DNA of 47,157 bases from an uncultured SAR86 cluster bacterium (lineage in GTDB: Bacteria > Pseudomonadota > Gammaproteobacteria > Magnimaribacterales > Magnimaribacteraceae), in assembly GCA_938075195.1 (NCBI GenBank), contig CALJGK010000050.1, positions 1-47,157 on the forward strand. Reading direction: 5' to 3'. Numbering within the stretch: the first letter of the stretch is position 1; each line of letters opens with the position of its first letter. The position numbers were made by a program, and so were the translations under genes. Positions 10,468 to 14,602 of the stretch are shown in pieces. The notes below the pieces were generated by a model. The model was not told the origin of the DNA. It searched no databases and saw only the letters and a list, made by a program, of their open reading frames with translations.

Positions 10468-10947
10468 ATGATTATGCTTAAAAAATTTCTGAGTCTATTA
10501 ATATTTATCTTAATGATGTCTGTGGAATCCTCTGACCTTAATATTAAAAATATTAATTCTCAAACGGAGCTCTTAGTTCATAAAACTCCAACTTGTGGTT
10601 GTTGCAAAATGTGGGTGAAACATATCGAAAATAATGGATTCACTGTAAACACGCAAGATCATCAAAGTCTTATAGATATAAAAGAAAAGTTAAAGATCGA
10701 ACCTAAATATAGGTCTTGTCATACCGCCGTTTCGTCAAAAGGATATTTTTTTGAGGGTCATGTTCCTAGCAAGTACATAAATCAATTTCTCATGGAAAGA
10801 AATCCAAATGCTATCGGTTTATCAGTCCCAGGAATGCCTTTGGGCTCACCTGGTATGGAAGTTGAAGGGCGTTTTACGCCTTATGATGTATTGATTCATT
10901 TCAAAGATGGAGAAACCAAGGTGTATGCTGAAGTAAGAGGTTTGTGA
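10468..10947 (+). CDS. DUF411 metal-binding protein
   Basis: 'VHKTPTCGCCKMWVKHIENNGF', 'CHTAV', 'GHVP', 'GLSVPGMPLGSPGME'. Confidence 0.9.
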   Translation: MIMLKKFLSLLIFILMMSVESSDLNIKNINSQTELLVHKTPTCGCCKMWVKHIENNGFTVNTQDHQSLIDIKEKLKIEPKYRSCHTAVSSKGYFFEGHVPSKYINQFLMERNPNAIGLSVPGMPLGSPGMEVEGRFTPYDVLIHFKDGETKVYAEVRGL

Positions 10948-10950
10948 TAT

Positions 10951-10995
10951 TGGCGGGCCCGGGAGGACTCGAACCTCCGACCAATGGATTATGAG
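10951..10995 (-). pseudogene. 3' fragment of tRNA(CAT), a 45-bp direct repeat of the intact gene at 12654-12730; candidate displaced att half-site
   Basis: 44/45 identity to 12654-12698; the single difference is at the discriminator base; 5' half of the tRNA absent. Confidence 0.9.
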
Positions 10996-11044
10996 AGCTC
11001 TGGTTGATTAATATTCATTCGACCATTGTATTTGCTTAAAAGAA

Positions 11045-12013
11045 TCACTTTAATCTGAAGATTTCAATATACATTCTGGTATCGAAAGGCACTCTAGCAC
11101 TTATCACATGCAGGCTTATGAAGTGCACAAAAGGATTTCCAGTTACAACAGTGAAAGTTGCTTTGCCCATCCCAACCAGAGTCTGAGTCATGACTATATA
11201 TGTGAAAGAGGTCAGAGCATAAGAAACGCTACTATAATCAACTCCTTGATCAAATAGACTAAATAGAGAGTAAAACAAACCTCCAAGCAAAATTACGGTT
11301 AGCTTATTATCAATTAATACTGCTACACGTGGAATGAAAATCATATGCATCATCACCACTACAGGCAATCCAGCTCCCAAGGTATTAATTAAAATTCCAA
11401 GCGGAATGCCTTGAGCGTATTGAGTTGAGCTAATGCCGCCAATGAAATCTGTAGATCCTGAAAATATGGGACCGAAAAAATCTATACCCCAATAAGCAAT
11501 GATTATCCATAAATCCCTGATCCATTTAAATGAACCAAAAAGTTTTTTTAAGGAAAATCCCCTTCTTCTAAGCCAGATTAAGGGAAAAACGGTATAGATA
11601 ATTGTATATGTAATTGCCCAAAGCCACACATCTACTTGAGAATGACTTCCTGTTGAATAAACATCTGTTCCAGGAAAATGAAGTCCCATATTAAAACCTA
11701 AACCTAAAATCAATTGAGTAACTAGCAAGTAAACTACAGTCAACCATGCTTCTGTTTTTGCAGTAGATTTTTTAACTGAATAAAGCTCAATCCAATTAAC
11801 TGCTTCTCTCTTTCGGGTTAGATATAGCAACAAAAATACTGCAATAACTAATACGGGTATGTATGTAGTTAATAAACTTCTAAAACCATCCTCTGCTATA
11901 GGCGAAACATTGAGGCCTTTTTGAACAAAGAAAAAATAAGAAAAAGTTGCAAGTATCCAAAATGAAAGCCCTATTAAAAAGATTTTATTTTTAGGGTTTA
12001 TTAATAATTGCAT
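11045..12013 (-). CDS. Multipass integral membrane protein of unknown function (possibly CPBP-like)
   Basis: 322 aa, about eight hydrophobic segments; conserved-looking 'NPFVHFISLHVISARVPFDT'. Confidence 0.7.
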   Translation of the reverse strand: MQLLINPKNKIFLIGLSFWILATFSYFFFVQKGLNVSPIAEDGFRSLLTTYIPVLVIAVFLLLYLTRKREAVNWIELYSVKKSTAKTEAWLTVVYLLVTQLILGLGFNMGLHFPGTDVYSTGSHSQVDVWLWAITYTIIYTVFPLIWLRRRGFSLKKLFGSFKWIRDLWIIIAYWGIDFFGPIFSGSTDFIGGISSTQYAQGIPLGILINTLGAGLPVVVMMHMIFIPRVAVLIDNKLTVILLGGLFYSLFSLFDQGVDYSSVSYALTSFTYIVMTQTLVGMGKATFTVVTGNPFVHFISLHVISARVPFDTRMYIEIFRLK

Positions 12014-12014
12014 C

Positions 12015-12026
12015 TTCTAATTAGAA
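12015..12026. promoter_or_regulatory. Perfect 12-bp palindrome TTCTAATTAGAA, candidate MarR operator in the divergent promoter
   Basis: Self-reverse-complementary; overlaps the -10 (TCTAAT) of the 11045-12013 gene. Confidence 0.5.
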
Positions 12027-12048
12027 TATGAATTTAGTATAATGTCAA
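12020..12048 (-). promoter_or_regulatory. Sigma-70-like promoter TTGACA-17-TCTAAT for the membrane-protein gene
   Basis: Minus-strand -35 at 12048-12043, -10 at 12025-12020; expected +1 near 12013, the A of ATG. Confidence 0.55.
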
Positions 12049-12533
12049 TTATGGTTGACAATTTAAAACCAACATTCGATTATTTAGAAACTAATCTGAT
12101 GAAGTTAGTTTTAGAGATGGCAGAAAAGATGCAAGAGGAATCCATATCTTTAAACAAAAGCGGAAAATATCATCGGGCAACATCTGCACAGATAAAAATA
12201 TTCGATACTCTAAGGGGAGAAAAAAGGTCAATTTCATCACTATCCAGAAAATTAGGCATATCAAGGCAAGCGACCCATAAAACTGTTCATCAGTTAGTAG
12301 ATTTGGGATTATTGAAACTAGAAAAGCTGAAGAATAGCAGAGATAAAATTGTTCTCTATACTGATGAAGGAAAAAAAGCTCGATTAGTTGGAGCGAAAAA
12401 CTTAATCAAGATTGAAAAAAATATAATTCAGTATCTGGGTAAAGAAGACTATTTAAATCTAAAAAGAATTTTACTGAAACACTATAAGCTTCATGAAACT
12501 AAAGATAAGATGCCTTCAAAACCTAACATATAA
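12042..12533 (+). CDS. MarR-type winged-helix transcriptional regulator
   Basis: 'RSISSLSRKLGISRQATHKTVHQLVDLGLLKLEKLKNSRDKIVLYTDEGKKAR'; the in-frame ATG at 12051 may be the real start. Confidence 0.85.
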   Translation: MSIMVDNLKPTFDYLETNLMKLVLEMAEKMQEESISLNKSGKYHRATSAQIKIFDTLRGEKRSISSLSRKLGISRQATHKTVHQLVDLGLLKLEKLKNSRDKIVLYTDEGKKARLVGAKNLIKIEKNIIQYLGKEDYLNLKRILLKHYKLHETKDKMPSKPNI

Positions 12534-12653
12534 TGAATCATTGGGTCTGACACAGTGAGCAGTCTTATGAACTCAAAGGAATGTTATTTGTGAACATAGT
12601 ATTAGCTGATCACAAACTTTTTAAAAATGAAAAACCTCTGAAATCCTTGTAAA

Positions 12654-12730
12654 TGGTGGGCCCGGGAGGACTCGAACCTCCGACCAATGGATTATGAGTC
12701 CACTGCTCTAACCAACTGAGCTACAGGCCC
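12654..12730 (-). tRNA. tRNA with CAT anticodon, probably tRNA-Ile2 (lysidine-modified), encoded CCA
   Basis: Cloverleaf GGGCCTGTAGCTCAGTTGGTTAGAGCAGTGGACTCATAATCCATTGGTCGGAGGTTCGAGTCCTCCCGGGCCCACCA; C4-G69 and C5-G68 acceptor pairs. Confidence 0.95.
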
Positions 12731-12733
12731 TAT

Positions 12734-14602
12734 TTAGGAGTCAAGAAAACCTTTCAAATGAGATGATCTGGTTGGATGTCTTAATTTCCTAAGAGCTTTG
12801 GCTTCTATTTGCCTTATTCTCTCTCTAGTCACATCAAACTGTTTCCCGACTTCTTCTAAGGTATGGTCAGTATTCATTCCGATACCAAACCTCATTCTTA
12901 AAACTTTTGCTTCTCTCGCTGTAAGGCTACCAAGAATATCATCAGTTGCTCCTTGCAGATTTTCTTCTATAGCCGCTACATCTGGAGAATCAATTGAAGT
13001 ATCTTCTATAAAGTCACCAAGAGTTGTATCTTCTTCGTCTCCAATCGGAGTTTCGGTAGAAATTGGCTCTTTAGCAATTTTTAACACTCTCCTAACTTTA
13101 TCTTCCGGTAGATCCATTCGTTCGCCCAACTCTTCAGGCGTAGGTTCTCTTCCCATCTCTTGGATCATCTGACGGGATACTCTATTGAGTTTATTGATGG
13201 TCTCTATCATATGAACAGGAATTCTAATAGTTCTAGCTTGGTCTGCGATAGAACGTGTAATAGCCTGCCTAATCCACCAGGTCGCATATGTTGAGAATTT
13301 GTAACCTCTTCTGTACTCAAACTTATCTACAGCCTTCATTAAGCCTATATTTCCTTCTTGGATAAGATCTAAAAATTGTAAACCTCTGTTTGTATATTTC
13401 TTTGCGATAGAAATTACCAATCTAAGGTTAGCCTCAACCATATCTTTTTTGGCTCTTCTTGTTTTGGCTTCTCCAATAGACATTCTTCTATTAATATCTT
13501 TTATTTCGCTTACGGGAAGCTGAATAATCTTTTCTAGTTTTGCTAGTTTATTCTGTAATCTAACGATTTCAGTAAGATTAGCCTTAACTTCTTTAGCCCA
13601 AGGCTTTCTTGATTTAGCAATTTTTTCAGACCAAGCTGAATCAGCTTCATTGCCTGAATACTCTTGTATAAATTCTTTTCTAGGCATCCTGCCTCGCTTC
13701 ACATAAATAGTGAACAAATACTTCTCTACTTCTCTAATAATTTCTAACGCATCTCTCGCTGGATTAGCAACTTTTTCAAATTGAGTTGGAGACAGCTTTA
13801 TAAATTGAAAAATTTCACCAAGTTTTGCTTGTTCAGCTAGAGCAGCCTTGCTGGTTCTGGTTCTGGAACAGGCTTTATCAACTTTATTGTATTGTCTTTT
13901 GAGGGCACTGAATCGCTTTTTGACTTCTACGGGATCTGGACCAGTAGGCTCATCATCATCCGATTCACCTTTTTCTTCTTTTTCTTTCTTTTGAGCTAAT
14001 GCAGGTGGTGGTATTCCTTCTTCTATATCCATAAAACCAACCATGACTTCAGATAGTCTTCTATCGCCTGCCACGTACTCTTGATATTCGTCTAAGATTC
14101 TGTCGACAATACCAGGATAAAAACAACAAGCATGAAGAAGTTCTCTTGCTCCTTCTTCAATCCTTTTGGCAATGGCTATCTCTCCCTCTCTTGTGAGGAG
14201 ATCAACTGTTCCCATCTCTCTCATATAGAGCCTTACCGGGTCGGTTGTTCTTCCAACTTCTGATTCAACAGTTGTTAAGGTCGTTCTGGTATCAGCGATT
14301 GTTTCAGGAGCTGAGTCTGAGTTATCATCAGAAGCGCCATTTGATTCAAGCACTTCTATACCAATATCCATTAACATTTGTATAGTTTCTTCAACCTGGT
14401 CAGGATCAGAAATATCCTCAGGAAGCATCGCATTTATATCTTGATATGTGAGGAAACCTTGGTCTTTACCTTTGTCTACAAGCTCTCTAAGACCTGAATT
14501 CTCGAGATCTTCTTCGCCATGGGATACCTCTTCCGATTCTTCAGTGGATTCGACTTCTTTTTCTTTAGCTTCTAAAGGTGTTTTTTTTGCTTTTCTTGCC
14601 AT
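12734..14602 (-). CDS. rpoD: RNA polymerase primary sigma factor sigma-70
   Basis: '[74 protein letters not shown]'; region 4 '[28 protein letters not shown]'. Confidence 0.99.

Follow-up and report, generated by a model that had tools for sequence, protein, structure and literature searches.

SAR86 bacteria abound in the sea, have small genomes, and remain uncultured, and the ways in which they acquire genes are poorly known. A 47,157-nucleotide contig from the SAR86 draft genome G000 (completeness 82.6%), called the window here in its full length, raises this question at its single tRNA gene: how did two genes come to lie between an intact tRNA-Met and a displaced copy of its 3' half, with no integrase beside them?

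A two-gene unit behind tRNA-Met

The only tRNA of the window is tRNA-Met(CAT), and the last 45 nt of this gene recur in direct orientation at the far end of the interval (Table 1). The initial annotation had described this repeat as differing at one position, which the alignment bears out: 44 of 45 nt are identical, and the lone mismatch falls in the terminal CCA region (GGGCCCACCA versus GGGCCCGCCA). The best 45-nt matches in shuffled windows (n = 6) reach only 23–27/45, and further tRNA-like matches in the rest of the assembly are all partial (≤79%) and lie on other contigs. Two more of its claims stand: the identity block begins at the anticodon loop—this holds in every tRNA-Met unit—and a membrane protein, TM322, and a MarR/winged-HTH regulator are the sole genes between the repeats. 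The interior of the unit measures 1658 bp, or 1703 bp counting one repeat copy. An island at a tRNA is recognized by an intact tRNA plus a displaced direct 3' fragment, and this criterion is met by the window (44/45), by the genomes G032 and G124 (45/45 each), and by units at tRNA-Phe (40/40).

The TM322 family is absent from Pfam, NCBIfam, and PADLOC and has no solved relative. Its AlphaFold model is poor (pLDDT 58), the fold search is uninformative, and no member was found in plasmids or phages. The most that can be said is that TM322 is a MarR-controlled membrane protein of unknown function.

Table 1. Features of the tRNA-Met unit and its surroundings in the window, and contigs with tRNA-Phe units
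Feature	Position	Strand	Basis
tRNA-Met(CAT), intact, restored target; its last 45 nt (12654–12698), from the anticodon loop, are the left att repeat	12654–12730	−	ARAGORN, repeat comparison
Element left end (LE), with homologs in the LE of G032, G013, and G124	12580–12653	−	Alignment
MarR/HTH-type regulator, 163 aa, cargo; not in the G124 version	12042–12533	+	
TM322, multipass membrane protein without known family, cargo	11045–12013	−	
Right end (RE), mutated in the window; conserved with G032, G124, G008, and G041	10996–11030	−	Consensus TCCACTGCTCGAATGAATTTTAATCGATCAAAGCC
Displaced copy of the tRNA 3' 45 nt (44/45), the right att repeat	10951–10995	−	
DUF411 gene flanking the right repeat; abuts the tRNA in G033 and G009 (sites empty for the TM322 unit)	10468–10947	+	
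rpoD, conserved left flank	12734–14602	−	
tRNA-Phe unit contigs in SAR86	L155, L156, L157, L158, L122		

The same unit in distant SAR86 lineages

The genome G032 belongs to another SAR86 genus and features the same arrangement at the same tRNA: tRNA, LE, MarR, TM322, RE, and a 45/45 repeat. It aligns with the window at 89% nucleotide identity from rpoD through the right repeat, where homology ends. The genome G124 (AG-447-M16, presumably a single-cell genome, SAG, as read from the isolate name) belongs to another SAR86 family and lacks the MarR gene—its order is tRNA, LE, TM322, RE, a 45/45 repeat, and a second LE. TM322 of the window and of G124 are 91.3% identical in amino acids and 92.4% in nucleotides, whereas their neighbors on the same stretch reach 34.6% (dnaG) and 63.5% (rpoD) in amino acids. 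The TM322 genes of the window's own genus, in G011 and G002, are more distant (78% and 73% aa). A TM322 tree groups the window with G032, G124, and G123 at a support of 83/90; this is below the threshold of the tool, and the argument for transfer therefore rests on the identity contrasts.

TM322 also occurs in other settings. In G002 the gene follows cobS/cobT-like genes (names that we assigned by reading; L014:7825–8769), and at the corresponding place of the window genome the last 55 TM322 codons remain (G000:C26:6985–7149, contig L015). In family f2, TM322 stands beside MarR near tRNA-Phe. In G123 a 92%-identical TM322 lies at the 3' end of what we take to be guaA, named from reading its C-terminus, with a 12-nt direct repeat CATTGAGTGGGA (L121:9936–11187); to go by this repeat, guaA is a different integration site with the same TM322 cargo.

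Variable occupancy of the tRNA-Met site

The initial annotation had suggested looking in relatives for empty sites or other cargo, and both are present at tRNA-Met. Among outgroup genera in the family of G000, a PF03601 gene follows the tRNA within approximately 10 nt (G026, G030, G027, G022, G019, G020, and others), and in G033 and one G009 contig DUF411 follows it directly. In genus g1, the genes of the interval differ between species: two methyltransferase-like genes with neighbors in G004, G010, and G008 (assigned by reading), a 279-aa gene in many genomes, and an aldehyde dehydrogenase-like block in G009; older, scarred insertions are also present downstream of the tRNA. Five SAR86 contigs (L046, L047, L050, L060, and L069) terminate in or shortly past tRNA-Met, as is expected if strains differ in inserted content. 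In G070, a right-end-like scar lies beside a tRNA-Met piece and DUF411 (L119:8230–8330), with no intact tRNA-Met nearby in the stretch examined.

TM322 is found in 11 of the 204 SAR86 genomes compared—most of them incomplete drafts—and its distribution does not track core-gene relatedness. Together with the variable tRNA site, this means that the MarR and TM322 genes are not core. The interval would have been refuted as an island by universal sharing among relatives, a core-like phylogeny, and a lack of empty sites; this outcome failed to appear, given the 11/204 distribution, the empty and alternative sites, and the exact bounds in G032. As far as sequence comparison can establish it, the relatives confirm that the TM322 unit is mobile and has moved between distant SAR86 lineages without an integrase of its own.

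Conserved ends and units at tRNA-Phe

Intact copies feature TTTACAAGGGTTTCAGAGGTTCTTCATTTTCAAAAAGTGTGAACACCTGTGAACACCTATT..ATGTTCACA after the CCA: a direct pair of 10-nt repeats plus a single copy in inverted orientation. The direct pair of the intact tRNA-Met copies (TGTGAACACC, twice) lies 39 nt past the CCA, and the right end before the anticodon-loop crossover resembles TCCACTGCTCGAATGAATTTTAATCGATCAAAGCC in all intact copies. The second left end of G124 retains the direct pair and lacks the inverted copy. In the window, the TGTGAACACC pair is destroyed by an 8-nt deletion and substitutions, and the inverted copy TGTTCACA is retained at 12589–12596. Because the direct pair is lost, the right end mutated, and the repeat imperfect, the window copy looks decayed; on the state of these ends, it is probably a decaying member that is no longer mobile. 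Two further units share the right end: an 860-bp unit in G008, whose cargo is a lipoprotein-like gene and whose left end repeats the layout in a different sequence, and a one-gene unit in G041, metallophosphoesterase-like by reading, with the right end only.

A scan of the 204 genomes with the arm pattern TGAACACNNNTGAACAC yields nine sites in eight genomes, and the reversed-pattern control yields none; the left ends of the window and of G008 are too diverged for detection by this pattern. All nine sites lie at a fixed distance past the CCA, 39 nt at tRNA-Met or 31 nt at tRNA-Phe, and the arm sequences at the two tRNAs are related but different. The tRNA-Phe units span 0.9–4.6 kb with perfect repeats (40/40), and their cargo is mostly restriction-modification or small unknown genes: a single 107-aa gene in G059 (952 bp), an HNH endonuclease-VII-family restriction enzyme plus a C5 (5mC) methyltransferase in G109 (2.3 kb), and a restriction-modification set in G118 (4.6 kb). 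The unit of G120 measures 2.2 kb. G088 features two intervals in tandem, the first without the arm motif. The units of G088 (family f3) and G109 (family f2) have 1.7 kb in common at 90% nucleotide identity. Overall, most units are 0.86–2.3 kb, and only that of G118 exceeds 4 kb. A 104–107-aa protein family of unknown function (MFLMEKNM...) recurs in the tRNA-Phe units of G088, G059, and G120.

Absence of an integrase and the search for a helper

No PF00589 integrase lies inside the window unit or any of the related arm-bearing units found, so the absence reported for the window by the initial annotation extends to all of them, and something else must move these units. A larger, integrase-bearing version, whose existence in relatives it had raised, was not found: none of the 61 nearest genomes has an integrase at tRNA-Met. 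Seven carrier genomes (G000, G032, G059, G041, G088, G120, and G109) have tyrosine recombinases of only approximately 300 aa, XerC/D-sized, their Xer identity being assigned by size only. Other integrases occur in the carriers G124 (529 aa), G118 (a fragment), and G013 (450 aa). The G124 contig was rejected as helper since it has only single TGAACAC sites without paired arms, and the G013 contig was rejected as the missing half of the truncated G013 unit since no end motif is there. Additional SAR86 integrase contigs have no matching ends and no tRNA-Met within reach. End-pattern matches across GTDB fall in three SAR86 genomes, those in Serratia and a GC-rich MAG being judged unrelated. Hence, a helper integrase with matching arms was not found in the 204 SAR86 genomes, by exact patterns in IMG/VR, or in GTDB contigs, and exact end patterns revealed no SAR86 parent element in viral contigs.

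Elsewhere in SAR86, integrases often adjoin paired direct repeats of similar period and other sequence. In a non-SAR86 element of IMG/VR, a P4-type integrase with a PF13356 arm domain adjoins GTGTTCATAAGTGTTCATG, the arm sequence of the tRNA-Phe units. Since the same layout, and once the same sequence, lies beside such integrases, the repeats are proposed by analogy to be arm sites of a P4-type-like integrase. Near tRNA-Ser in G118, two copies of the arm pair TTACGCACTTCGTTACGCACTT flank a 106-aa integrase fragment (L182:6988–8900); this region is possibly a decaying integrase-bearing unit.

Two overlapping IMG/VR phage contigs (L125:1874–1950 and L126:7551–7627) carry a tRNA-Arg and a tRNA-Met, the latter 77/77 identical to that of the window. 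They were rejected as element parents, the matches being phage-encoded tRNA genes instead. The identity suggests a SAR86 phage and, possibly, an extra target for cassettes.

Proposed mechanism and alternatives

We consider it likely, with real room for doubt, that these units are SAR86 cassettes without an integrase, which an unidentified tyrosine integrase, probably P4-type-like, moves in trans, and that the window copy is a decaying member. A unit would consist of one to few cargo genes between an arm-repeat left end and a right end adjoining the tRNA 3'-half copy. The integrase, supplied in trans, would join a circular cassette to tRNA-Met or tRNA-Phe by recombination at the anticodon loop; integration would restore the tRNA and leave the displaced 3' copy at the far end, and repeated rounds could stack units behind the tRNA. 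Evidence of stacking is given by the G088 tandem, the second LE of G124, and the varied tRNA-Met cargo in genus g1. The circular intermediate, the identity of the recombinase, and the route of cell-to-cell transfer are inferred—no circular or excised form was observed. The TM322 units look mobilized in trans because integrase-less copies are 89–92% identical across genera and families. The initial annotation had left open trans mobilization or a decayed remnant, and each finds support: the former for the family by this identity, the latter for the window copy by its damaged ends and imperfect repeat.

That all units are remnants, immobile now, of integrase-bearing islands that lost their integrase at the tRNA in place by CIME-like accretion and decay is unlikely but deserves weight. 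The visibly decayed window copy, the integrase fragment between two arm-pair copies at tRNA-Ser of G118, and the older scarred insertions in genus g1 are in its favor. However, the stretch from TM322 to the right end (89–92% nt) and the left end are common to three copies in three genera, so the integrase was absent before their divergence; independent deletions would give different endpoints. In addition, 0/9 arm-bearing units in the 204 genomes retain an integrase, and the perfect repeats (45/45, 40/40) and the arms present in several copies speak for a recent integration. Perfect repeats aside, could homologous recombination between conserved flanks (rpoD/tRNA and PF03601/DUF411) have spread the cargo and left the repeat over? 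We regard this as very unlikely: between families these flanks are too diverged (rpoD 63.5%, dnaG 34.6% aa), homology ends at the att repeat, the same end type occurs at another tRNA, and the 92%-identical TM322 at guaA has a different repeat, even though most copies do sit at one chromosomal locus.

Scarcely credible, too, is integration by the chromosomal XerC/XerD in the manner of IMEX, which would need no extra integrase. Elements using XerCD have dif-like sites and no paired arm-type repeats, whereas here the crossover falls in the anticodon loop of a tRNA and paired arms accompany it, in the style of phage or P4-type integrases, and the arms at tRNA-Met and tRNA-Phe differ in sequence while being related; the point in favor is that several carrier genomes show only Xer-sized tyrosine recombinases. 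A degenerated old tandem tRNA duplication around ordinary chromosomal genes can practically be dismissed. The displaced copy is indeed a tRNA fragment, but all tRNA-Met units have it starting from the anticodon loop, the interval is missing in relatives and has conserved ends, tRNA-Phe shows the same structure around other genes, and no full-length second tRNA lies at this place in the loci examined.

Relation to known elements

Additive flexible genomic islands, described in Alteromonas (PMC4119200) and as fGI-2 in Methylopumilus (PMC10872708), are tandem tRNA-anchored cassettes. As far as these reports were accessible, they resemble the SAR86 cassettes in their location at a conserved tRNA, in direct repeats of the tRNA 3' end, and in strain-variable occupancy, with fGI-2 sizes reaching down to 330 bp (PMC10872708), and the SAR86 units meet the criterion of variable cassettes stacked behind one tRNA. 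The accessible parts describe islands of varying length, not from SAR86, and neither conserved arm-bearing ends nor integrase-less single units exchanged between families. CIMEs keep attL and attR, lack integration and transfer genes, and can occur in tandem (PMC5704250). The SAR86 units likewise keep att sites without integration genes; however, CIMEs arise by decay of an ICE or IME (PMC5704250), whereas the SAR86 units are, in their integrase-less form, near-identical between genera and between families. No ICE/IME parent with matching ends was found in the 204 SAR86 genomes or GTDB contigs.

Tycheposons, as far as PMC10872708 and PMC10803314 recount them, span 4–200 kb and carry a tyrosine recombinase. 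Being marine, tRNA-anchored, and cargo-carrying, they are similar to the SAR86 units in logic, and to this extent the comparison drawn by the initial annotation stands; it does not fit in size or recombinase (PMC10872708, in the part available), for the SAR86 units are 0.9–4.6 kb and recombinase-less, with only G118 (4.6 kb) within the tycheposon range. PICMI and other phage satellites are also small and site-specific, and some satellites carry anti-phage genes (PMC10803314). Satellites bring an integrase and excision functions of their own, the PICMI core genes being integrase, AlpA, and primase (PMC10803314); such a set of own integrase, regulator, replication, or packaging genes is absent from the SAR86 units as judged by Pfam and PADLOC. 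Integron cassettes and CALIN arrays share the small cassettes, the array behind a fixed site, and an integrase possibly elsewhere (PMC11389934), but the SAR86 att site, judged by its repeat alone, is a tRNA half plus arm-type repeats and not attC. It is an improbable, speculative extension that SAR86 tRNA genes are the entry site of an integron-like system, in which a diffusible helper integrase would insert one- to few-gene circles at tRNA-Met and tRNA-Phe, and phages with an identical tRNA-Met would offer the same target and ferry cassettes from host to host.

The literature was covered in part, without the original tycheposon paper; within this coverage, no report on SAR86 was found, nor any account of integrase-less units below 2 kb that have conserved ends and pass between families.

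Implications

Restriction-modification genes are part of the cargo in several units and suggest a light-weight route for the exchange of phage defence. The conserved ends are a direct handle with which these units and their helper can be searched for. If cassettes of 1–2 kb can indeed cross families with no more than an att site and an integrase from outside, searches keyed to an integrase adjoining a tRNA would miss a large pool of marine islands.
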